Source of the DNA: Cruoricaptor ignavus
GTDB taxonomy: Bacteria > Bacteroidota > Bacteroidia > Flavobacteriales > Weeksellaceae
Assembly (NCBI RefSeq): GCF_900141665.1
Contig: NZ_FQYI01000007.1
Span: 62,001-126,000 of the forward strand
Length of the DNA: 64,000 bases
Reading direction: 5' to 3'
Shown: positions 15,977 through 53,726 of the stretch, piece by piece
Layout: each line of letters begins with the position of its first letter
Numbering within the stretch: the first letter of the stretch is position 1
Position numbers and translations under genes: made by a program
The notes under the pieces: generated by a model
What the model saw: the letters and a program-made list of their open reading frames with translations, nothing else
What the model was told of the DNA's origin: nothing
Database searches by the model: none

Positions 15977-16944
15977 CTTTTTATTTTTTCTAAAATCTGC
16001 TGAATCGAGAGTTCCTCCAGGCAGGCATAATCACCCCGGTAGCACTCTTTGTCGCCAAAAACCGAGCAGGGCCTGCAGCTTAGATCCTTGACTTCGGCAA
16101 CATCCGCCACGCTTTGTCCGTAGCCTAGAAAGCCTGCGTATCTGTGGGTGCCCCCCCACACGGAGATGCAGCGCGTGCCCACCAGGCTCGCCAGATGCAT
16201 ATTGGCAGAATCCATAGAGACCATAAGGCGAAGGCGCGCAATCAGCTGAAGCTCTTCGGTGAGGCTGAGGCGGCCCGCCACACATTCCGTATTGGGGATT
16301 GCCGCCTGCCAGTGCCGCAGTGTTTCGATTTCGGATTCGCCGCCTCCGAAGAAATAGACTTTTTCCTCTTTTGCAAGGAGCCGCGCCAGCTCGAAGGATT
16401 TTGCCGGGGAGAGCATTTTGCCCTTGTGCTGGGCAAACGGTGCAAAGCCGATGTTTTGTTTTTCTTCTGTGGTGGGGCACAGTTCGTGGGAAAGTTTCAC
16501 GGGAAACCCTAAGTCGCGGAATACATCAGCATACCGCTCCACGGTAGGTTTCAGCTGGAATTTGTCCAGATTCTGCACATCTGTGAGCGCTTCTTTTCCC
16601 TCTTTTCCCTTGTCGATAATGGCGACCCGATATCCTCGCAATTCAAAAATCCTGCGAAAAACCTTTGTACGGATGACATCGTGCAGATCGGCGATCCCGT
16701 CTGGCTGGAACTCTTTTATCAGAGACAATGCCAGCCTGCGCAAGCCGAAATAGCCCCGGTAATCATCGAGATTTACACCTTTAAAAACAAGATTCGGAAT
16801 CCCGAGGAAAAGCTCTCTGAAGTTCTCCCGGGTTACCATCATCACCTGCACATCGGGATTTTGCTGCAGAAATTCCCTGCAGACTATCGCAGCCATAGCA
16901 ACATCTCCGAAGGCAGAAAACCGGTATGCGAGAACTTTCTTCAA
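15973..16944 (-). CDS. Family 9 glycosyltransferase (heptosyltransferase-like)
   Basis: GT-B fold protein of the GT9 family, which includes the lipopolysaccharide heptosyltransferases. The N-terminal signature is YRFSAFGDVAMAA. The C-terminal domain has MDSANMHLASLVGT followed by VWGGTH, which corresponds to the nucleotide-sugar site. 323 residues is normal. The TTG start overlaps the sufE stop in TTGA. It is co-transcribed with the GT2 gene and probably works on the same glycan. Confidence 0.85.
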   Translation of the reverse strand: MKKVLAYRFSAFGDVAMAAIVCREFLQQNPDVQVMMVTRENFRELFLGIPNLVFKGVNLDDYRGYFGLRRLALSLIKEFQPDGIADLHDVIRTKVFRRIFELRGYRVAIIDKGKEGKEALTDVQNLDKFQLKPTVERYADVFRDLGFPVKLSHELCPTTEEKQNIGFAPFAQHKGKMLSPAKSFELARLLAKEEKVYFFGGGESEIETLRHWQAAIPNTECVAGRLSLTEELQLIARLRLMVSMDSANMHLASLVGTRCISVWGGTHRYAGFLGYGQSVADVAEVKDLSCRPCSVFGDKECYRGDYACLEELSIQQILEKIKR

Positions 16945-39056: not shown

Positions 39057-41216
39057 ATGAAAAAATTTCTGTTTATTTTTTTTGCTTTCGTCTCCTCCGG
39101 ATTTTTTTCTCAGGTGAAGGAACCGCTCAGTATACCGCCAGACGCTAAGATCGGTCTCTCTCTGGCAGGCGGCGGCGCCAAAGGATTCGCGCATGTAGGC
39201 GTGCTGAAGGTAATGGACTCCCTGGGCGTGAAGGTGGATTATATCTCCGGCACGAGTATGGGCTCGATTGTGGGTGGGCTGTACGCAAGTGGCTACAGCG
39301 CCAAGGAAATTGAGAAAGTGGTGCGGGATACGGATTTTTTTGACCTCATCCTTAATGAAAAGGAGTGGGGCAAAAACACCTTTTATAACAAAGGAAATGA
39401 CAAATATCTGCTGACGGTGCCTTATAAAAACGGTAAATTTAACGCCGTACCAAAAGCTGTAGCCAAAGGGCAGAAAATGGGTAATAAACTTCGGGAGCTT
39501 CTTCATCATGTATCAGAAACGGAGGATTTTTCCCAATTGCCCATACCGTTCCTGTGTGTAGCCACGAATGCAGAAACCGGTAAAATGCGGGTCTTCGAAA
39601 GCGGGGATCTGCCTTCTGCCATCCTTGCGAGCTCCGCATTTCCCTCACTTATGGATCCGGTGAAAATTGGCGACAGCATTTATATCGATGGTGCAATCAC
39701 TGTGAATTATCCTTCGGAACATCTTAAAAAGAAGGGCATGGATATCGTAATTGGCGTTGATCTTAGCCAAGAACTGTCAACCCGGGAGGAGCTCAATTCT
39801 GTGGTAGACATATTGAACCAGGTCATAGATTTCCAGATACAGAGGGAAACGCAGCGGCAGTATGGCTTTACCGACATCAACATAAAACCCGATTTAAAGA
39901 ACAAGACCTCTGCCGATTTCGGAGAAAAAGAATTACTACTGACCCAAGGATACAGGGAAGGGCTGAAATATGCCGAAATTCTCGACAAGCTCCCGAAACG
40001 AGGAAATAATCTCAACAAGATTATAGTCCCGGATAGGGACGCGCGGTACCCGATACAGGATGTGGTAATGGAGGGCAATAATATTTTCGGCAGAAATTAT
40101 GTGCTTGGGAAGATGAATCTTAAACTCCCAGAGCAGCTTTCTTATCCACAGATTAACGAGAAAATTGATAAGCTTTACACCACAGGCAATTATGAATTCA
40201 TCAATTATGACCTTGAAAAAAGAGGTTCTGAAAGTACGCTGCACCTGGAGCTTCAGGAGGATGACACGAGGCTGTTCCTGAAATTCGGCCTGCATTATGA
40301 CGATGTTTTTAAAACCGGTCTGCTTATCAATGCCACGGGCAAGCGTGTACTTTTCCGCAATGCTATTCTTTCCGCAGACTTCATCATTGGGGATCAGCCT
40401 AGATATTACTTCAATTATTTTATTGACAATGGCTATTTTCCGGGCTTTGGTGTAAGCTCCACAGGCTTTAAACTTCAGTTGAAAAACTCGCAGAACGACA
40501 TCAAGGAAAAGTGGGGCTGGGTACGGAATAATGCCTTTCTGCAATCAACATTCTTGGACCGGTATGCGATCGGCGGCGGCCTAAGCCACGATTATTATGA
40601 AATAAATTCCGCACCAGGATGGCAGGGCAACAAGTCCCACAATTACTTTAATCCTTACTTTTTTATCAAAAGTGATACGCGCGATCAGAAAGATTTCCCC
40701 ACCCGGGGTCTCTATTTGGATGCCGGCGCACGCTATCTGGATATATTTTCTAACTCGTCGGACGAGGTTCTGCAGACTACCCTGGATCTTAGAGCTTTTT
40801 TCCCGCTTTCCAGAGTTTTTACCTATTCACTTGATACTTTTGCGGGCATTTCACTCGGCAAAGAGGCACCGCATTTTTACCTCTTCCGGCCGGGGGCGGT
40901 CATCGGGCAGCCTTTGGGTACTTTCACCTCCTTTACAGGATACCGCTTTGGCGATCTTGCTACTGATAATTTGTTTTCATTTAAAAACAGTCTTCAGGTA
41001 GAATTTGCACGAAATTTCTTTGCTACAGGTCATTACTCCCTCGCCAATTTATTTGCCGGCAGCGATATGAAAAAAGTGTTGCGGATATCTCATCACTCCG
41101 TTGGCATTTCCGGAGGTTACCGGTCGCCGTTCGGGCAGATTAGGGTGGATTTTTCTCAGCCGCTGAACAGTGGATATAATGGCGTATTCAGTGTAATAAT
41201 GGGTCATTGGTTTTAA
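39057..41216 (+). CDS. Patatin-like phospholipase with POTRA and outer-membrane barrel
   Basis: 719 residues with a signal peptide (about 1-19). The patatin domain (about 30-240) has the oxyanion motif GGGAKG, the nucleophile in GTSMG (Ser67) and the catalytic Asp in DGA (Asp211). A single POTRA-like region follows (about 325-405), then a beta-barrel resembling BamA/Omp85 up to the C-terminal aromatic residue (GHWF). This order is that of type Vd autotransporter-like phospholipases. It starts one base after the murF-alr stop. Confidence 0.88.
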   Translation: MKKFLFIFFAFVSSGFFSQVKEPLSIPPDAKIGLSLAGGGAKGFAHVGVLKVMDSLGVKVDYISGTSMGSIVGGLYASGYSAKEIEKVVRDTDFFDLILNEKEWGKNTFYNKGNDKYLLTVPYKNGKFNAVPKAVAKGQKMGNKLRELLHHVSETEDFSQLPIPFLCVATNAETGKMRVFESGDLPSAILASSAFPSLMDPVKIGDSIYIDGAITVNYPSEHLKKKGMDIVIGVDLSQELSTREELNSVVDILNQVIDFQIQRETQRQYGFTDINIKPDLKNKTSADFGEKELLLTQGYREGLKYAEILDKLPKRGNNLNKIIVPDRDARYPIQDVVMEGNNIFGRNYVLGKMNLKLPEQLSYPQINEKIDKLYTTGNYEFINYDLEKRGSESTLHLELQEDDTRLFLKFGLHYDDVFKTGLLINATGKRVLFRNAILSADFIIGDQPRYYFNYFIDNGYFPGFGVSSTGFKLQLKNSQNDIKEKWGWVRNNAFLQSTFLDRYAIGGGLSHDYYEINSAPGWQGNKSHNYFNPYFFIKSDTRDQKDFPTRGLYLDAGARYLDIFSNSSDEVLQTTLDLRAFFPLSRVFTYSLDTFAGISLGKEAPHFYLFRPGAVIGQPLGTFTSFTGYRFGDLATDNLFSFKNSLQVEFARNFFATGHYSLANLFAGSDMKKVLRISHHSVGISGGYRSPFGQIRVDFSQPLNSGYNGVFSVIMGHWF

Positions 41217-41219
41217 ATT

Positions 41220-41633
41220 ATGATTACTTTTCACTTTGAAGAAATACCAGAGTTCAAGCTGGCTAAAGGTATTAAAAGCTGGCTGGAATCGATTATCATC
41301 GAAGAAGGGAGGAAGCCTGGCGAAATTTCCTACATATTTTGCGATGATGAATATTTACTGAAGGTGAATCAGGATTTTCTCAAGCACGATTACTACACAG
41401 ATATAATTACTTTCGATTATGTTCGTGGAAAAATTATATCGGGCGACATTTTCGTATCTTTGCAGCGCATTGAGGATAACGCCGCACAGCAAAACGCAGA
41501 TTATGAAAAAGAATTTCATCGGGTATTGGCTCACGGCATCCTACATTTGTGTGGATACAAAGACAAATCTGACGACGAGCAAATTTTAATGCGGCAGAAA
41601 GAAGATTTTTACTTATCTCAATTGGATTTTTAA
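41220..41633 (+). CDS. ybeY: Endoribonuclease YbeY
   Basis: Zinc-dependent single-strand RNase for 16S rRNA maturation and ribosome quality control. The metal signature HGILHLCGY (HxxxHxxGY) is near the C-terminus, and DIITFDY marks the family strand. 137 residues is usual. The gene ends directly at the first parS palindrome. Confidence 0.93.
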   Translation: MITFHFEEIPEFKLAKGIKSWLESIIIEEGRKPGEISYIFCDDEYLLKVNQDFLKHDYYTDIITFDYVRGKIISGDIFVSLQRIEDNAAQQNADYEKEFHRVLAHGILHLCGYKDKSDDEQILMRQKEDFYLSQLDF

Positions 41634-41634
41634 A

Positions 41635-41650
41635 TGTTTCACGTGAAACA
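41635..41650. other. parS centromere-like site 1 (exact consensus)
   Basis: TGTTTCACGTGAAACA is identical to the 16-bp parS consensus bound by chromosomal ParB/Spo0J proteins. The palindrome extends one base further on each side (41634-41651). It lies in the 28-nt gap between ybeY and mnmG. A second copy is 1.9 kb downstream. The parAB genes are not in the window. Confidence 0.88.
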
Positions 41651-41661
41651 TTTTTTATTTT

Positions 41662-43530
41662 ATGAGTGTTATTTCAGAAAAATATGATGTCATCGTAGTT
41701 GGGGCAGGTCACGCTGGCTGTGAAGCTGCTGCCGCCGCTGCCAACCTTGGTTCCAGAACGATTTTGGTGACGATGAATATGCAAACCATCGGGCAAATGT
41801 CCTGCAATCCTGCTATGGGTGGTATCGCAAAAGGGCAGATTGTACGGGAAATCGATGCATTGGGCGGTTACAGTGGTATTATTGCCGACAAATCGGCGAT
41901 ACAATTCAAGATGCTGAACCTTTCCAAAGGACCGGCAATGTGGTCGCCCAGAACACAGAACGACCGAATGCTTTTTGCCGAAGAATGGCGCTTAGCATTA
42001 GAACAAACACCAAATCTGGATTTCTTCCAAGATATGGTGAAGAGACTGATTTTGGTAGGAAATAGGGTAGCTGGTGTGGAAACTTCAATGGGCGTCAAGA
42101 TTTATGGAAAGTCGGTAATTCTTACGAATGGTACTTTCTTGAACGGCTTAATTCATATCGGTGAGAAGCAATTTGGCGGCGGAAGAATGGGCGAGCCAAA
42201 GGCCTATGGATTGACCGAACAACTTACAGATTTAGGCTTTGACGCTGGACGAATGAAAACCGGTACGCCACCAAGAGTTGACGGCAGAAGCCTAGATTAT
42301 TCTAAAATGGATGAGCAGATAGGCGATGATAATCCATTGAAGTTCAGTTATTTAGATACGCCAAAATTGAAGGAGCAAAGAAGTTGCTACATCACTTACA
42401 CCAATGAAACCGTGCACGATATTCTTCGTGAAGGTTTTGAAAGAAGCCCGATGTTTAACGGTACCATCCAAAGCACTGGGCCAAGATATTGCCCTTCGAT
42501 TGAAGATAAAATTAACAGATTTTCGGATAGAAACCGTCACCAGCTTTTTGTGGAACCTGAAGGCTGGAAAACCGTGGAAATTTATGTGAACGGCTTTAAT
42601 TCATCATTGCCGGAAGAGATTCAGGCAAAAGCAATGCGCCAAATTCCCGGATTTGAAAATGTGAAGATTTTCCGTCCTGGCTATGCAATTGAGTACGACT
42701 ATTTCCCGCCAACACAGTTAAAACATACCCTGGAAACCAAGCTTGTAGAAAACCTGTATTTTGCAGGCCAAATCAACGGAACAACGGGATATGAAGAAGC
42801 TGCGGGGCAAGGGTTGATGGCCGGAATTAATGCTCACAACAAAATTCACGGAAAGGAAGAATTTGTGCTGAGTAGGGATGAAGCCTACATTGGCGTACTC
42901 ATCGACGATCTTATTACGAAAGGTACAGAAGAGCCTTATCGTATGTTCACTTCGCGCGCGGAATATCGCCTGCTTTTACGGCAGGATAATGCGGATATTC
43001 GTTTGACGGGAAAATCTTATAGGCTTGGTTTGGCGAGCGAAGAAAGGATGAGAAGGGTAGAAGAGAAGCTGGAAAACAGCCAGAAACTGGAAAATTTCCT
43101 GCGGGATTTGTCGCTGAAACCGAATGTTATCAATCCGATTTTGGAAGCTAATGAGAGTAATCCGGTGGATCAGGCTTACAAAGCTTCACAATTTTTAACT
43201 CGACCAAACATCGATTTACAGAAGCTTTCAGAGATTTCCGAAATTGGAAATGAACTGGAAAATTACGATGCAGAAGCGCAGCAACAGGCAGAAATAAACA
43301 TTAAGTACAAAGGCTACATTGATAAAGAGCGGGAAAATGTGGATAAACTGAAACGACTGGAAAACATCAAAATTCCTGCGGAATTTGATTTTTCACAAAT
43401 TACCTCATTATCTTCCGAAGCGAAGCAGAAATTTTCTGCAATTAAACCTGCGAGCATTGCTCAGGCATCGAGAATTAGCGGTATTTCGCCGGCTGATATT
43501 AATGTTTTGCTCATCTACCTTAATAAATAG
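41662..43530 (+). CDS. mnmG: tRNA uridine-5-carboxymethylaminomethyl modification enzyme MnmG
   Basis: FAD-dependent enzyme that with MnmE makes the cmnm5 group at U34 of several tRNAs. The N-terminal FAD motif GAGHAGCEAA, CNPAMGGIAKG, and the conserved GLMAGINAHNK are clear; 622 residues is standard. In many bacteria mnmG (gidA) lies next to the origin, and here it is bracketed by parS sites. mnmE is not in the window. Confidence 0.96.
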   Translation: MSVISEKYDVIVVGAGHAGCEAAAAAANLGSRTILVTMNMQTIGQMSCNPAMGGIAKGQIVREIDALGGYSGIIADKSAIQFKMLNLSKGPAMWSPRTQNDRMLFAEEWRLALEQTPNLDFFQDMVKRLILVGNRVAGVETSMGVKIYGKSVILTNGTFLNGLIHIGEKQFGGGRMGEPKAYGLTEQLTDLGFDAGRMKTGTPPRVDGRSLDYSKMDEQIGDDNPLKFSYLDTPKLKEQRSCYITYTNETVHDILREGFERSPMFNGTIQSTGPRYCPSIEDKINRFSDRNRHQLFVEPEGWKTVEIYVNGFNSSLPEEIQAKAMRQIPGFENVKIFRPGYAIEYDYFPPTQLKHTLETKLVENLYFAGQINGTTGYEEAAGQGLMAGINAHNKIHGKEEFVLSRDEAYIGVLIDDLITKGTEEPYRMFTSRAEYRLLLRQDNADIRLTGKSYRLGLASEERMRRVEEKLENSQKLENFLRDLSLKPNVINPILEANESNPVDQAYKASQFLTRPNIDLQKLSEISEIGNELENYDAEAQQQAEINIKYKGYIDKERENVDKLKRLENIKIPAEFDFSQITSLSSEAKQKFSAIKPASIAQASRISGISPADINVLLIYLNK

Positions 43531-43544
43531 TTTCACGTGAAACA
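43529..43544. other. parS centromere-like site 2 (one mismatch)
   Basis: AGTTTCACGTGAAACA differs from the parS consensus only at the first base; the inner 14-bp palindrome is perfect. It overlaps the mnmG stop codon (43528-43530) and contains the GTG start of the downstream methyltransferase at 43537. Confidence 0.82.
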
Positions 43545-44364
43545 TTTACAACTGAAAGACTATTTTCTGACTCAGGAAGAATTTGAAATTACAGAAACTC
43601 AGATTCCGGGCGTACTAAAGACACTGCCTGAGCCTAAAGATTTGGGAAAATATTACGACAGCAAAAATTACATTTCGCACAACCAGGACAGCAAAAGCTT
43701 CAAGGAAAAAATTTATAAATACTTTCAGAAAATTAATCTGAATTATAAACGAAATCTTTTAGCAGCGATGCTTTTCCAAAATGCTAAAGTTTTGGATTAT
43801 GGTTGTGGTGCCGGTGATTTTTTGGAATTTTGCAAGGATGATTTTCAAATGATTGGCTTCGAACCAAATGAAAAAGCTCGGGAAATTGCAAAACAAAAAG
43901 CCAAATCTGCGCAATTTATCTCTGATATTCAAGCACTGGAAAATTTTAGTCTGGATGCCATTACGCTTTGGCATGTATTTGAGCATCTAGAAAATCCGGG
44001 AAAAATGCTTGAGATTTTTAAGAGCAAGCTGAAGGATTCTGGCCAACTGATTATCGCGCTTCCGAATTACAAATCTTACGATGCTAAATTCTACGGAAAA
44101 TACTGGGCGGCCTACGATGTTCCACGGCACCTTTTCCATTTTTCGCAGGAAGGGATGCAGAATATTCTTTCGCGGAAAAATTTAAAAATCACAAAAGTGA
44201 AACCATTGCATTTTGATGCATTCTATGTTTCGATACTGAGTGAAAAATATCGGAAAAATCCATTTTTTCCCCTGTTTGGGATGACGATGGGTGCAATTTC
44301 GAATTTTAAGGCGGTAAAATCCGGCGAATTTTCAAGTCTGATATACTTTATCGAAAAAAATTAG
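43537..44364 (+). CDS. Class I SAM-dependent methyltransferase
   Basis: 275 residues. The SAM-binding motif VLDYGCGAGDF begins at about residue 86 and is followed by the acidic residue in GFEPN, so the fold is clear. The ending of motif IV-like sequence LWHVFEHLENP resembles methyltransferases acting on small molecules or lipids. The substrate is unknown. The start GTG lies within a parS site. The gene is AT-rich compared with its neighbours. Confidence 0.85.
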   Translation: MKHLQLKDYFLTQEEFEITETQIPGVLKTLPEPKDLGKYYDSKNYISHNQDSKSFKEKIYKYFQKINLNYKRNLLAAMLFQNAKVLDYGCGAGDFLEFCKDDFQMIGFEPNEKAREIAKQKAKSAQFISDIQALENFSLDAITLWHVFEHLENPGKMLEIFKSKLKDSGQLIIALPNYKSYDAKFYGKYWAAYDVPRHLFHFSQEGMQNILSRKNLKITKVKPLHFDAFYVSILSEKYRKNPFFPLFGMTMGAISNFKAVKSGEFSSLIYFIEKN

Positions 44365-44404
44365 TTATCCGATTTTTAGCCTGTTTCTGAAAGCCAATTT
44401 TCGA

Positions 44405-44441
44405 GCAAAAAAATTCCGCTACAAGAAATAGCGGAATAATT
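44405..44441. terminator. Terminator between methyltransferase and pgk
   Basis: ATTCCGCTA (44413-44421) pairs with TAGCGGAAT (44429-44437). A run of seven A on the left gives a T-run for the minus strand, so it ends pgk; AATTTT on the right gives weaker termination on +. Confidence 0.8.
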
Positions 44442-44466
44442 TTATAAATATTTATATAAATAAATA

Positions 44467-45657
44467 TCAACCGTTGATCGCTTTGATGCCTGGCAATTCC
44501 ACACCTTCCAAACTTTCAAGCATCGCGCCACCACCCGTAGAAACATAGGAAACCTTGTCCTCGTATTTATTCTGCTTCACGAAAGCCACGCTATCTCCAC
44601 CGCCAACAAGCGAGAACGCGCCAAGTTTGGTAGCCTCTGCAATCGCATCACCTAAAGATTTAGTTCCTGCAGAAAAATTCTCCATTTCAAAAACGCCAAC
44701 CGGTCCGTTCCACAAAATAGTCTTAGATTTCAAAATCACATCGTGGAAAAGTTCACGGGTTTTCGGGCCAACATCCAAGCCCATCCAGCCTTCCGGAATT
44801 TCGTAAATGTCCACCTCATCAGTTTTAGCATCATTGTTGAAATCATCAGCAATCACACTGTCCACCGGCAAATGAACCTCCACATTTTGAGCTTTTGCCT
44901 TTTCCAAAATTTCAAGCGCCAACTGCATTTTATCTTCCTCCACCAAAGAATTTCCGATATGTCCCCCCTTTGCCTTGATGAAGGTGAACGCCATACCGCC
45001 TCCAATAATCAGGTTGTCAACTGCTGGCAAAATATTCTCAATAATGGTAATTTTTGACGAAACCTTAGAGCCACCGATAATGGCTGTCACTGGCTTTTCA
45101 CCGCTGTTCAGCACTTTATCAATCGCCTGGAGTTCTTTGGACATCAGTTCACCGAAAAATTTAGTTTCTGGGAAAAACTCAGCGATAATGGCTGTGGAAG
45201 CGTGCGCCCTGTGAGCCGTTCCAAACGCATCATTCACATAGGCATCGCCCAAGTTCGCAAGCTGTTCGGCAAAAGATTTGTCGCCTTTTTCTTCTTCATT
45301 GTGGAAGCGCAGATTTTCAAGCAAAAGCACTTCGCCCGGCTGCAATTCTTCCGCGCATTTTACTGCAGCATCACCGGTAGATTCCTCACAGAACTTCACA
45401 GGTTCTCCAAGCACGGTTTCAATTTCGGAAACTATGTGCTTCAGCGAAAATTTATCGGAAACTTCGCCCTTTGGCCTGCCAAGATGCGAAAGCAAAATTA
45501 CAGAACCGCCGTCGTTCAGGATTTTCTCGATAGTTGGCTTCGCAGCTACAATTCTCGTATTATCGGTCACCTTCAGATTATCGTCTTGCGGCACATTGAA
45601 ATCTACGCGCACAAGCACTTTTTTCCCGTTGAAATCGTAATTTTGGATGGTTTTCAT
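44467..45657 (-). CDS. pgk: Phosphoglycerate kinase Pgk
   Basis: Glycolytic enzyme transferring phosphate between 1,3-bisphosphoglycerate and ADP. The substrate motif VRVDFNVP is near the N-terminus, with GRPKG, and the C-terminal nucleotide site includes GGGDSVAFV and STGGGAMLE. 396 residues is standard. It is alone on its transcript, with a minus-strand -7 box at 45687-45694 and the terminator at 44413. The origin-like gap lies upstream. Confidence 0.97.
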
Positions 45658-45686
45658 AAGATTGAATTTTGCGGATTTGACTTTAG

Positions 45687-45694
45687 CAAATTTA
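45687..45694 (-). promoter_or_regulatory. -7 box of pgk
   Basis: TAAATTTG on the minus strand, 29 nt before the pgk ATG. A T-run stands at the -33 distance instead of a clear TTTG. Confidence 0.45.
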
Positions 45695-46132
45695 CGCTTT
45701 CCGTGCCTGAAAAAAAATTCTTTGCCCGAAAAATTTCAACAGAGGTACAGCGATATTAATCAACAATTTTTTTTAAATTTTAGAAAGAAAGAAATTGTAA
45801 ATGTTGTAATGCGGTGTGAAATTTGGGAAAAGTTTTTTCGGGAATTTCGTAACATTTGGTTTACATTGCGTTCACGATTTATTCACATTGCAACGCATTG
45901 AAAATGAGCGGGATTTCTGGTTTATCAACAATTGTGAATAAGCTTTGGAAAACCTTTTGCGAAGGAAAGCGCTGTGAATTTTGCTGGAATATCATCGCTA
46001 AAAATTCCGTCAAAAAAATTCCTTGAGAGCCGGAAAAAGTTTCCAATATGAATTAAATGTTAACGGCGCAAGAAAATTTTGCGCAAAGTTTTCCACATCA
46101 AATCATCTGTACTATCAACAAATTATATTCAA

Positions 46133-46162
46133 TTGCGGTTATTGCTAAAAAACTTAAATTTG
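46133..46162 (+). promoter_or_regulatory. Promoter of rpiB
   Basis: TTG at 46133-46135 and TAAATTTG at 46155-46162 are separated by exactly 19 nt, a full match to the Bacteroidota promoter pattern. The rpiB ATG is 16 nt downstream. Confidence 0.7.
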
Positions 46163-46178
46163 TACATAAACGAACGCA

Positions 46179-46607
46179 ATGAGGAAAATCGCAATAGCAG
46201 CCGACCACGCAGGCTTTGAATACAAGGAATTTCTGAAAAAGGAACTTTCCGCGGAATTTGAAATACAGGACTTCGGTACGCAAAGTATTGATTCTGTGGA
46301 TTATCCGGATTTCGTGCATCCTGCAGCAACTTCTGTAGAAAACGGCGAAAATGAATTCGGAATCCTGATTTGCGGAAGCGGACAGGGCGTGCAGCTGAGC
46401 GCCAATAAGCATCAGGGCATACGCTGTGCCTTGGCCTGGATGCCGGATATTGCCGAACTTTCGCGCCAGCACAATGATTGTAATATGGTGGCAATTCCGG
46501 CAAGATTTATAGCAAAAGAATTCGCCCTGGAAATTGTGAGAAAATTCCTTAGCACAGAATTTGAGGGCGGCAGGCATAACGAACGCGTAAGGAAAATTTG
46601 TTTTTAA
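46179..46607 (+). CDS. rpiB: Ribose-5-phosphate isomerase B
   Basis: RpiB/LacAB family isomerase interconverting ribose 5-phosphate and ribulose 5-phosphate. The sequence ADHAGFEYK is at the N-terminus, the active-site ICGSGQG region replaces the more usual CGTGIG, and GGRHNERV is near the C-terminus. 142 residues is typical. Its stop is inside an 18-nt hairpin that recurs after rnr. Confidence 0.93.
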   Translation: MRKIAIAADHAGFEYKEFLKKELSAEFEIQDFGTQSIDSVDYPDFVHPAATSVENGENEFGILICGSGQGVQLSANKHQGIRCALAWMPDIAELSRQHNDCNMVAIPARFIAKEFALEIVRKFLSTEFEGGRHNERVRKICF

Positions 46608-46623
46608 ACTAAAAATTTAGTTT
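46606..46623. repeat. 18-nt hairpin repeat, copy 1 (before rnr)
   Basis: AAACTAAAAATTTAGTTT has 8-nt complementary arms around AA. It begins in the rpiB stop codon and ends 9 nt before the rnr ATG. An identical copy is at 48801-48818. Confidence 0.6.
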
Positions 46624-46632
46624 ATTATTTCG

Positions 46633-48786
46633 ATGCCAAAAAAATCACGATATATTTCTCAGAAAAACGAGTATAAGCTGCGCGAAATCGGGCGGCTGAT
46701 TACCCGTTTTATGAACGAGAACCCGACGAAAATTTATAATTACAAACAAATTGCCGATGGCATTGATTACAGAAATCCGCGGCAAAGAGAGCAGGTAGTA
46801 CAGGCACTGCACAAGCTAAGAGCCGATGACACGATAAAGGAAGTCGAAAAAGGGAAGTACCTGCTTAACCTGAAAATAGACGGCACGCTGACTGGCATCA
46901 TCGATTTCAACCAGACAGGAAACGCCTATGTGAAGGTGGATGGCCTGGAGGACGACATCTTCATCCACTCGAAAAATGTGAAGGATGCTCTGCAGGGCGA
47001 TACCGTTCTCATCGTGACCTATCACTACAAAGGCAAGCGCATAGAAGGCTCCGTGCTGGAAGTTCTGGAACGCAGCCGCAGCGAATTTGTGGGCACTTTT
47101 CAGTTCATCAAGCATAAAGATTTCGGCTTCGTGATTTGCGATAAAAAGCAAATAAACACGGATATCTTCATCCCGAAAAATAAAATCAACGGTGCAAAAG
47201 ATGGCGAGAAAGTCGTCGTGAAAATGTCCGCCTGGAAAAGAGGCGAAAAAAATCCGGAAGGCGAAATCATCGAGGTGCTTGGTTCGTCCGGTGAGCACGA
47301 AACGGAAATCCATTCCATACTGGCTGAATACGGCCTGCCGTATGAATTTCCGGCCGATGTAGAGCGCGAGGCCAACGAGCTTGATAGGGAAATCCGCCCG
47401 GAAGAAATTGCGCGACGCCGTGATATGCGCGAAATTCTCACCTTCACGATTGACCCGAAAGATGCCAAGGATTTTGACGACGCGCTTTCGATACGGCAGC
47501 TGGAAAATGGCAACTGGGAAATCGGCGTGCATATTGCCGATGTATCGCACTATGTAAAGCCTGGAACGCTGCTGGATGCTGAGGCCTTTAAGCGCGCAAC
47601 CTCGGTTTATCTGGTGGATAGGGTGGTGCCTATGCTTCCCGAAGTCCTTAGCAACGATGTGTGTTCGCTTCGCCCGAACGAAGACAAGTACACCTTCTCG
47701 GCGGTTTTTGAAATTGATGATAATGCCAAAGTCGTGAAGCAGTGGTTCGGCAAAACGGTTACGCATTCGGACAGAAGATTTACCTACGAAGAAGCCCAGG
47801 CAAGGATTGAAACCGGGCAGGGTGATTTGGCACAGGAAATTCTGGTGATGGACAGGCTGGCGAAAATTATGCGTGAAGAACGGATTAAAAACGGCGCGGT
47901 AACTTTCGACCGAAGCGAAGTGCGCTTTAATCTGGACGAAAACAACGAGCCTGTAGGCGTTTATTTCAAAATCAGCAAAGATTCCAATCATCTGGTGGAG
48001 GAATTTATGCTGCTGGCCAACCGAAAAGTTTCGGAATTCGTTTCGCTGAAAAGCAACAACCAGCGCAGTGAGAAGACCTTCATCTACCGCATCCACGATG
48101 ATCCGGACCCTACAAAGCTGGCGGCATTGCAGGAATTTGTGTCCACCTTTGGCTACAAAATGAACATTTCAAATTCCAAACGGACTACCGAAAGCCTGAA
48201 CAAGCTTTTGCGCGATGTGAAGGGAAAAGGCGAGGAAAATATGATAGAAACGCTGGCGATGCGAAGTATGGCCAAAGCAGTGTACGGCACGGAGCCTATC
48301 GGGCATTACGGCCTTGGTTTCGAGTTTTATACGCATTTTACATCGCCGATTAGGCGCTATCCGGACATCATTGCGCATCGCCTTTTACAACATTATCTGG
48401 ACGGCGGAAAATCTGTAAACCGCGATGAAATCGAGGATCAAGCGAAACACAGCTCTGCAATGGAAAGACTAGCAGCCGATGCAGAGCGTGATTCCATAAA
48501 ATTTATGCAGGTGAAATTTATGGAAAAGCACCTCGGAGAAGTTTTCGAGGGCGTGATCTCTGGCGTTGCGGAATTCGGTTTTTGGGTGCAGATTCCTGAA
48601 AACGGTGCCGAAGGTTTGATTAAATTGCGCGATTTGATGGACGATTCCTACCAGTTTGACCCGAAAACTTATTCGGTGATTGGTGCAAGAACAGGTAATC
48701 AATATCAGCTTGGCGATAAGGTGAAAATCAAGGTGATGAAGGCTAATCTTGTGGCGAAGCAGCTGGACTTCCGAATTGAAGTTTGA
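46633..48786 (+). CDS. rnr: Ribonuclease R
   Basis: 3'-5' exoribonuclease of the RNB family, processive on structured RNA. It has an N-terminal helix-turn-helix-like part, cold-shock domains (about 80-240) and the RNB catalytic domain with DPKDAKDFDDALS, where the aspartates bind Mg. A C-terminal S1 domain (about 630-715) follows. 717 residues is normal. It is flanked by two identical 18-nt hairpins. Confidence 0.96.
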   Translation: MPKKSRYISQKNEYKLREIGRLITRFMNENPTKIYNYKQIADGIDYRNPRQREQVVQALHKLRADDTIKEVEKGKYLLNLKIDGTLTGIIDFNQTGNAYVKVDGLEDDIFIHSKNVKDALQGDTVLIVTYHYKGKRIEGSVLEVLERSRSEFVGTFQFIKHKDFGFVICDKKQINTDIFIPKNKINGAKDGEKVVVKMSAWKRGEKNPEGEIIEVLGSSGEHETEIHSILAEYGLPYEFPADVEREANELDREIRPEEIARRRDMREILTFTIDPKDAKDFDDALSIRQLENGNWEIGVHIADVSHYVKPGTLLDAEAFKRATSVYLVDRVVPMLPEVLSNDVCSLRPNEDKYTFSAVFEIDDNAKVVKQWFGKTVTHSDRRFTYEEAQARIETGQGDLAQEILVMDRLAKIMREERIKNGAVTFDRSEVRFNLDENNEPVGVYFKISKDSNHLVEEFMLLANRKVSEFVSLKSNNQRSEKTFIYRIHDDPDPTKLAALQEFVSTFGYKMNISNSKRTTESLNKLLRDVKGKGEENMIETLAMRSMAKAVYGTEPIGHYGLGFEFYTHFTSPIRRYPDIIAHRLLQHYLDGGKSVNRDEIEDQAKHSSAMERLAADAERDSIKFMQVKFMEKHLGEVFEGVISGVAEFGFWVQIPENGAEGLIKLRDLMDDSYQFDPKTYSVIGARTGNQYQLGDKVKIKVMKANLVAKQLDFRIEV

Positions 48787-48800
48787 TAAAAAATTAGCTT

Positions 48801-51659: not shown

Positions 51660-53726
51660 ATGAACATCGAAGGAAAAATATTGGTTGCTATCGTGGTGCT
51701 AAGCCTTGGCAGGCTGCAGGCCCAGGAAACAAAAATTACGCAGATCGACAGTGTAAAAATCCGCAAAAGCAGAATACTGCGGCAGCCAAAAAATTCAGAA
51801 ATTACCTCCGGTAGGCAGCTGGAAAATGCTTCCGGAGAGAACCTCGCCAATGTCTTGAAACAGCTCTCAGGAGTGAATATTTTGCAGAGCGGCGCCAATA
51901 TCTCCAAGCCTGTAATTCAGGGACTTACCAACCAGCGCATAGCCATTATCAACAATGGAATAAAACTGGAAAGCCAGCTCTGGAGCAGCGACCACGCGCC
52001 GGAAATAGACCCGAATCTTGCCTCCCAGATCGAGGTAATAAAAGGCTCCGATGCCGTGCGATACGGGTCCAACGCACTGGGAGGAGTAATCGTGATGAAG
52101 AACCGCCCCCTGCCTTTTTTTGGCGAGAAAATCGGAGGAAATGCGAGAATGGTAGGGCAATCCAACAACTCCGGATTTGGTGGTAACCTGATGCTGCACG
52201 GTGCCGCGGGCGCATTTGCCTGGCGCGTCCAGGGCAGCGGGAAACGCCTTGGCGACTACAAAACCGCAGACTATTATGTGAATAATACGGCAGCGAGGGA
52301 GCTAAATTTTTCCGGAGCATTGGGTTATAAAATGCCTTATGAAACGGCAGAGGTTTTCTACAGCCAGTTCTCCACAAACCTCGGCGTTTTTATGGGTTCA
52401 AGGATTGGCAGTGCAGATGACTGGAATCTGCGGCTCCGCCTTGGAAGGCCGCCCGTGGTGTTTCCGCAGGGATTTGAGATCCAGGCGCCCAACCAGAAAG
52501 TGAACCATCATCTTGCAAAATTTTCCCTGCAAAGCGACCGGCCTTTTGGCAAGACAGAATTTAATTATGCCTATCAGGAAAACCACCGCAAGGAATTCGA
52601 CCGGCGTACGGGACCCCTTGCCGACCGCCCGGTGCTGGATGTGGAGCTGGAAACACACTCCGGCACGCTGGACTACGAGAGGGTTTTCTTTGAGAATTTT
52701 AAAACCAGGGCGGGGGTGGCGTATTCTCACCAGAAAAACTTCAACATCCCCGGTACGGGCGTGAATTCCATCCTCCCCAATTTTGTTTCCAATAATGCCG
52801 GCGTGTGGCTCTCGGAGGAGTTCAGAAAAAATTCCTGGGTGGCTACGGGCGGCATCCGCTATGATTTTAAGGACTTCAGCGCGGCGGGCTACAACCGCTA
52901 CGGCGAGTACTACGGTGGCCAGCGCGATTACAGCAGCATCAGCTACGATCTTGGCATCCAGCGGCTGTTTGGCAATGGCTTTTCCGCAGCCACCAGCATT
53001 GGCAAAGCCTGGCGTGCGCCGGAGGCGGTGGAGCTCTTCAGCAACGGGCTGGATCACGGCAGCGCGCTCTACCTTCTGGGAGATGAAAATCTCAAAACTG
53101 AGAAAGGCCTAAAATGGACTGCCAGGCTGCAGTACGAAACGGGCAGGCTCTACCTTTCCGCGGAAGGTTTTTTGCAAAAAATCGACGGCTTCATCTATGA
53201 AATGCCCACCGGCGAATACAAAAACACCTGGGGCGGTCTGTTCCCGCTATTCGTGTACCGGCAGTCGGATGCGCTGCTGAAAGGTGCAGATGCGGAGCTG
53301 AGATTTCAGATTTCGGAGAGGGTAAAATATCAGGCGGTGTTTTCATCTGTGTATGCGGACAACCGGACGGAGGAATTTTATTTTCCGAACATTTCCCCGG
53401 AGCGCCTCAGTCAGAACATAGAGTTCAGCTTGGATAGGCTCACCAATCTGCGGGGAGGCTGGCTCCGGCTGGAGCACCAGTGGGTGAATAAGCAGCGCAG
53501 GTTCAGCGCAGAAACAGACTTGCTGCCGGATTCTCCGCCGGGCTACCACCTTTTCGGGGCGGGCATCGGCACGCAGGTGAGCACCTTCCGGAAGGACGAT
53601 ATGGCGCTCTCGCTGCAGGCGAATAATCTTTTCAATAAACTTTATAAGGACTACACCAACCGGTTCCGGTATTTTGCCCACGAGATGGGCAGGAATCTGC
53701 AGTTCCGGGTAAGCTTTAATTTTTAA
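51660..53726 (+). CDS. TonB-dependent outer-membrane receptor
   Basis: 688 residues with a signal peptide (about 1-21). The plug domain (about 45-165) includes GVNILQSGANISKPVIQGL and IEVIKGSDAVRYGSNALGG. A 22-stranded-type barrel follows and ends in the aromatic FRVSFNF. There is no N-terminal carboxypeptidase-like domain and no SusD partner, which points to a metal or siderophore receptor rather than a glycan one. Three lipoprotein genes follow. Confidence 0.9.
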   Translation: MNIEGKILVAIVVLSLGRLQAQETKITQIDSVKIRKSRILRQPKNSEITSGRQLENASGENLANVLKQLSGVNILQSGANISKPVIQGLTNQRIAIINNGIKLESQLWSSDHAPEIDPNLASQIEVIKGSDAVRYGSNALGGVIVMKNRPLPFFGEKIGGNARMVGQSNNSGFGGNLMLHGAAGAFAWRVQGSGKRLGDYKTADYYVNNTAARELNFSGALGYKMPYETAEVFYSQFSTNLGVFMGSRIGSADDWNLRLRLGRPPVVFPQGFEIQAPNQKVNHHLAKFSLQSDRPFGKTEFNYAYQENHRKEFDRRTGPLADRPVLDVELETHSGTLDYERVFFENFKTRAGVAYSHQKNFNIPGTGVNSILPNFVSNNAGVWLSEEFRKNSWVATGGIRYDFKDFSAAGYNRYGEYYGGQRDYSSISYDLGIQRLFGNGFSAATSIGKAWRAPEAVELFSNGLDHGSALYLLGDENLKTEKGLKWTARLQYETGRLYLSAEGFLQKIDGFIYEMPTGEYKNTWGGLFPLFVYRQSDALLKGADAELRFQISERVKYQAVFSSVYADNRTEEFYFPNISPERLSQNIEFSLDRLTNLRGGWLRLEHQWVNKQRRFSAETDLLPDSPPGYHLFGAGIGTQVSTFRKDDMALSLQANNLFNKLYKDYTNRFRYFAHEMGRNLQFRVSFNF

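Follow-up and report, generated by a model that had tools for sequence, protein, structure and literature searches.

Predictions for Flavobacteriaceae have placed the chromosome replication origin next to mnmG, as in Mariniflexile litorale (PMC11278836), where the position of dnaA disagreed with the skew plot, and in Algorimicrobium (PMC12843772). The text of PMC11278836 puts oriC at mnmG, and a figure legend in the same article labels mnmG as ter. The locus described here has in common with both predictions the mnmG neighbourhood and the agreement with GC skew; whereas the passages concerned in these articles name a neighbouring gene only, we can point to the gap between pgk and rpiB and to a defined module within it. 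In Elizabethkingia meningoseptica, the predicted oriC is 649 bp long, has three DnaA boxes with at most one mismatch and lies far from dnaA (PMC8994065), and its length falls within the range of the pgk-rpiB gaps that we measured (521-885 bp). The main text of PMC8994065 contains no occurrence of 'pgk' or 'rpiB', and the likeness rests on length, boxes and a distant dnaA rather than on orthology. Since flavobacterial origins near mnmG have already been predicted, an oriC at the present locus belongs to a known kind. Among the matches listed in the open-licence literature, judged by titles and the first lines of abstracts, none was an experimental study of a flavobacterial oriC, and DnaA-trio combined with 'bacteroid' retrieved nothing relevant from that literature.

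The oriC of Escherichia coli consists of an AT-rich unwinding side, a spacer, a strong box whose 3' end points toward the unwinding side, and a further array of boxes. The order found on the pgk side of our gap recalls this layout, but the number, order and spacing of the boxes differ, as does the gene context. Another reference is the BUS, made up of a DnaA-box and DnaA-trios, for which the criterion demands three or more 3'-NAN-5' trios no farther than 16 bp from the box (PMC8287927); deviant trios without the middle adenine were suspected in the same article. The present locus is like a BUS in having a box that faces the unwinding side and, in aligned relatives such as L006, a weaker box beside the strong one.

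Organization of the locus

The window, that is, the whole stretch of 64,000 nucleotides that was analysed, comes from Cruoricaptor ignavus (G000:C6:62001-126000), whose genome of 2.23 Mb is assembled in 29 contigs. The genes and the gap of interest are as follows.

41662-43530, plus strand: mnmG (gidA) (PF01134, E 1.9e-165)
44467-45657, minus strand: pgk, phosphoglycerate kinase (PF00162, E 1.9e-156)
45658-46178, no strand: pgk-rpiB intergenic region, proposed oriC (521 bp, GC 0.326)
46179-46607, plus strand: rpiB, ribose/galactose isomerase family (PF02502, E 3.4e-55)

The edges of the gap are the starts of the divergent pgk and rpiB, and the neighbourhood also carries ybeY, a methyltransferase gene and an RNase R-type gene. 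By RpiB, the nearest named relatives are Bergeyella, Chryseobacterium, Epilithonimonas and Kaistella. The dnaA gene lies on contig C19, away from the contig of the window (C6). A plasmid search with positions 41000-48800 gave no match, and Rfam gave nothing at gathering scores for positions 41000-47000. The gap had been called AT-rich in a sequence-only reading of the window, and the AT-richest 521-bp stretches do start at 45641-45661 (20-bp steps); with its GC of 0.326 the gap offers the AT-rich stretch expected of an oriC, for which we propose a role in unwinding.

DnaA boxes were scored by their mismatches to the reference 9-mer TTATCCACA. The same reading had counted at least four 9-mers with a single mismatch, and four are indeed present in 45658-46178 (45879+, 45922+, 45933- and 46089+), two of which form the opposed pair that it had reported at 45922-45941. 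The 20-mer of this pair occurs once more in the genome, at 3 mismatches, in a search that allowed up to 3. Perfect boxes are absent from the gap, and five are found in the rest of the window (6078, 40142, 43338, 51574 and 56120). When the dinucleotides of the gap were shuffled, the mean was 0.12 boxes, and none of 2000 shuffles reached four, so that the cluster exceeds chance. It is also the densest 521-bp stretch of the window for boxes, with up to 5 when the one at 46295 is counted, and stretches starting outside 45300-46200 hold at most 3 each. A weaker second group of three one-mismatch boxes (51946, 52277 and 52368; window positions 51946-52376) lies within a reading frame (51660-53726).

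Two parS sites had been claimed 2-4 kb away on the mnmG side, and both were recovered, at distances of 2.1 and 4.0 kb.

41635-41650, plus strand: parS, perfect TGTTTCACGTGAAACA (0 mismatches), between ybeY and mnmG
43529-43544, plus strand: parS with one mismatch, at the end of mnmG

These are the only parS-like sites with at most two mismatches in the whole genome, and ParB_N has a single match in it, on contig C12. Proximity of parS to oriC is usual in bacteria, though not universal. Of 11 genomes, 10 have a parS site (at most one mismatch) no more than 6 kb from the locus; in the remaining one, G051, the distance is 15 kb. A parS pattern with GTTCC arms is used by some relatives (L045), and none was found in the C. 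ignavus genome at up to one mismatch. A third parS-like site in the window, at 16493-16508 with three mismatches, is probably due to chance. In two genomes of genus g26, an additional parS-like site with one mismatch lies 65-75 kb from the proposed origin (G113:C1:1831269 and G117:C1:911113).

Conservation of the box array

A search of 120 genomes of the family, C. ignavus included, with 1 kb around the gap gave matches in 108, and nearly all the listed matches fell in the 5' portions of pgk or rpiB. Divergent neighbouring pgk and rpiB were found in 24 of the 29 best-scoring family loci, which were the ones fetched (L004-L032), and in all 7 of the close named loci (L041-L047), and pgk matched nowhere in the 8 more distant named loci (L048-L055); these pgk counts cover L004-L032 and L041-L055. 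Five loci with only one of the two genes (L004, L007, L009, L019 and L032) were set aside from the alignment of gaps, and seven near-duplicates (L017, L023, L026, L029, L030, L031 and L041) were dropped before alignment A1 and the counts over its 25 rows.

In the 31 relatives with divergent pgk and rpiB, the gap measures 524-885 bp, as against 521 bp in the window, and its core keeps a length of 299-316 bp (about 313 bp) at 42-55% identity to the window. Seven box positions keep their spacing within this core.

45824-45832, minus strand: DnaA-box position, degenerate here (4 mismatches), similar to TTATCCnCA in relatives; at most 2 mismatches in 24 of 25 rows
45846-45854, plus strand: weak DnaA-box position; at most 2 mismatches in 7 of 25 rows, mean 3.0 (background 6.4)
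45879-45887, plus strand: DnaA box TTATTCACA, weakly kept in relatives; at most 2 mismatches in 8 of 25 rows
45922-45930, plus strand: DnaA box TTATCAACA, left half of the opposed pair; at most 2 mismatches in 20 of 25 rows
45933-45941, minus strand: DnaA box TTATTCACA, right half of the opposed pair; at most 2 mismatches in 17 of 25 rows
45973-45981, minus strand: DnaA-box position, AAATTCACA in the window (3 mismatches); at most 2 mismatches in 17 of 25 rows
46089-46097, plus strand: DnaA box TTTTCCACA, the best-kept of all; at most 1 mismatch in 20 of 25 rows

Over the 25 rows, these seven best positions average 0.96-3.0 mismatches against a background of 6.4, and an eighth, 45958-, averages 3.6. 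Five of the seven are well kept and two are weak (45846+ and 45879+). At most one mismatch is seen in 20 rows at 46089+, 14 at 45922+, 10 at 45824-, 7 at 45933-, 6 at 45973-, 4 at 45879+ and 3 at 45846+; because the rows are related sequences, these counts and those given below for trios are numbers of rows and not of independent events.

Uniqueness of the module

The extent of the profile match defines the conserved module.

45762-46145, plus strand: conserved origin module (nhmmer 181 bits; the window is itself a training row)

A shorter, sequence-only model of the core, R1, was built on the 25 rows. In the C. ignavus genome it scores 135 bits at the module and at most 19 bits at the next match, and the module is therefore present once at full strength. 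Applied to 11 genomes outside the training rows, R1 matched in nine (G008, G097, G076, G065, G001, G051, G002, G033 and G085) with 81-139 bits, adjoining pgk in all nine; no match was obtained in G089, and G049 gave only a doubtful one of 20 bits. With the longer profile, L009 of G003, the tenth of the held-out loci, scores 148 bits; it also adjoins pgk. In 15 genomes from other families of the order, two matches had E below 1e-5 (G132 and G133), G123 had a match at E 0.001, and 12 had none. The match in G132 lies 3.6 kb from a two-mismatch parS-like site, that in G133 lies 37 kb from two one-mismatch sites, and that in G123 is far from any. In seven held-out genomes, six of genus g2 and G002 (L211-L217), rpiB is absent from the 3-kb locus of pgk and the module; this is a rearrangement right at the proposed origin.

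GC skew at the module

Skew was sampled from end to end in Bergeyella zoohelcum (G120), G026 and G051. In G089, G031, G067, G090, G061 and G113 most of the sampling lay no more than about 400 kb from the locus, and a deeper minimum farther away is possible there. Between the nearest stretches to the left and right of the locus, plain GC skew turns from negative to positive in 8 of the 9 sampled relatives; in G026 it keeps its sign, and third-position skew changes weakly. Some farther stretches run against the pattern (+211 and +721 kb in G120, -101 and +50 kb in G067, +101 kb in G090, -50 kb in G113 and -401 kb in G031). Third-position skew changes around the locus in plus and minus genes separately in G120 and G051, several others being noisy, and because both gene classes change, the switch in these two genomes is not merely one of gene orientation.

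The switch was resolved only to about 30 kb in most sampled genomes, which would leave room for an origin elsewhere in the parS/mnmG neighbourhood, with the gap serving as a DnaA-titration cluster; mnmG is also the neighbour named in the published predictions (PMC11278836, PMC12843772). We consider this very improbable on the evidence of two genomes in which the switch could be located more closely. In the contiguous 300-440 kb of Bergeyella zoohelcum, cumulative G-C reaches its minimum at 370.0 kb (0.5-kb steps) and the module occupies 369.64-370.00 kb, so that the minimum falls on the module, within about 500 bp; this genome belongs to the training rows of the model. In G051, the switch takes place between 1330 and 1360 kb (resolved to this interval), which includes the module at 1354 kb, whereas the parS/mnmG side, 15 kb from the module with parS at 1369-1371 kb, already has the right-hand skew sign.

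The gap might otherwise be a divergent promoter region only, in which DnaA boxes control the transcription of pgk and rpiB. Both genes start at its edges, and an element of the form TAnnTTTG, which we take to be a possible -7 promoter element, is found within the pgk-side 260 bp in 25 of 25 rows and within the rpiB-side 200 bp in 20 of 25, both counts being without a chance control. The window has one on each side, assigned by this presumed consensus.

45687-45694, minus strand: TAnnTTTG, possible -7 element of a pgk promoter
46155-46162, plus strand: TAnnTTTG, possible -7 element of an rpiB promoter

The box array of the window is, however, flanked by these two elements rather than composed of them, and a fixed-length array at 42-55% identity would exceed the needs of a promoter. 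Against a promoter-only role there is also the persistence of the module beside pgk where rpiB is gone, as well as the position of the skew switch, on the module in Bergeyella zoohelcum and near it in G051. In the latter genome rpiB has been relocated to 1446 kb, within a plus-skew run, and the switch stays near the module; the origin signal therefore travels with the module and not with rpiB. A purely transcriptional function is accordingly very unlikely.

In C. ignavus itself skew was followed on the 148-kb contig (one of 29), where it is weak and does not single out the candidate. The candidate lies near 108 kb and the cumulative minimum near 52 kb, a distance of about 56 kb, with only a local minimum about 8 kb from the candidate. 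Among plus genes, third-position skew is slightly below zero to the left of the candidate and close to zero or slightly positive to its right; minus genes give a mixed picture. The view of the sequence-only reading that the gap is an origin is upheld mostly by the relatives, through box layout and skew switch, in addition to module uniqueness and parS linkage; direct evidence from its own genome is weaker. Taking these lines together, we consider that the pgk-rpiB gap is very probably the chromosome oriC.

Proposed mechanism and significance

At such an origin, DnaA would bind the fixed-spacing array, made up of the outer positions 45824- and 46089+, the opposed pair in the middle, 45973- and the two weak positions, and bound DnaA would form an oligomer. 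This oligomer may then open the adjoining AT-rich stretch on the pgk side, at about 45762-45801, where helicase would be loaded and from which two forks would leave in both directions. Segregation of the new origins would presumably fall to ParB, acting at the pair of parS sites 2-4 kb away.

These results place the origin to about 300 bp, beside the easily found pgk, in many genera of one flavobacterial family. They call for caution where a chromosome is taken to start at dnaA, and they provide a fixed point for methods that estimate growth rate from coverage.

The proposed unwinding side

On the pgk side, a T-run/A-run is followed by TGTTGT, a short spacer and box 45824-, whose 3' end faces the AT-rich side.

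45762-45801, no strand: T-run/A-run AT-rich stretch seen in the alignment, pgk side, proposed unwinding element
45802-45807, plus strand: TGTTGT element between the AT-rich stretch and the first box, candidate non-canonical DnaA-trio

TGTTGT is found at this position in 22 of 25 rows, as against a mean of 0.93 and a maximum of 6 in mononucleotide shuffles, and, read by eye, it is also present in 8 of the 10 held-out loci, with three near-identical ones among them. Over whole gaps it occurs 38 times on the module strand and 4 times on the opposite strand. Unlike in a BUS, at least three trios within 16 bp of box 45824- were found in only 1 of 25 rows, where shuffles gave means of 10.2 and 10.9, and TGTTGT stands there instead; the canonical DnaA-trio is therefore absent at the unwinding-side box. 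At the six other box positions three trios were reached in 8-20 of 25 rows. Five of these positions differ from shuffles by no more than about 2.2 sd, and 46089+ falls short of shuffles (8 against 16.5), so that the criterion does not discriminate there. Within the window itself, only 45933- has three trios. A canonical BUS at the six other boxes was discarded, any excess over chance being about 2 sd at most.

TGTTGT may be a deviant DnaA-trio or a site for another factor. Read from the box outward, rows with TGTTGTTGTAG give 3'-GAT-GTT-GTT-GT-5', which would be a deviant of the sort suspected in PMC8287927, and rows with TGTTGTTGAG lack the GAT. That origins of the family open by way of a deviant trio, with the conserved TGTTGT beside the unwinding-side box guiding DnaA on the single strand, is a tentative proposal that we hold to be rather doubtful, and the locus offers a concrete test case for origin opening by DnaA where the canonical trio sequence is missing.

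The gap upstream of pgk in G089 (L019), which was missed by the model, nevertheless has TTATCAACA and a TAATAGTAATAATAG run which, by eye, resembles canonical DnaA-trios and is about as far upstream of pgk as TGTTGT is in the other loci. Canonical and deviant trios may thus both be present in the family.
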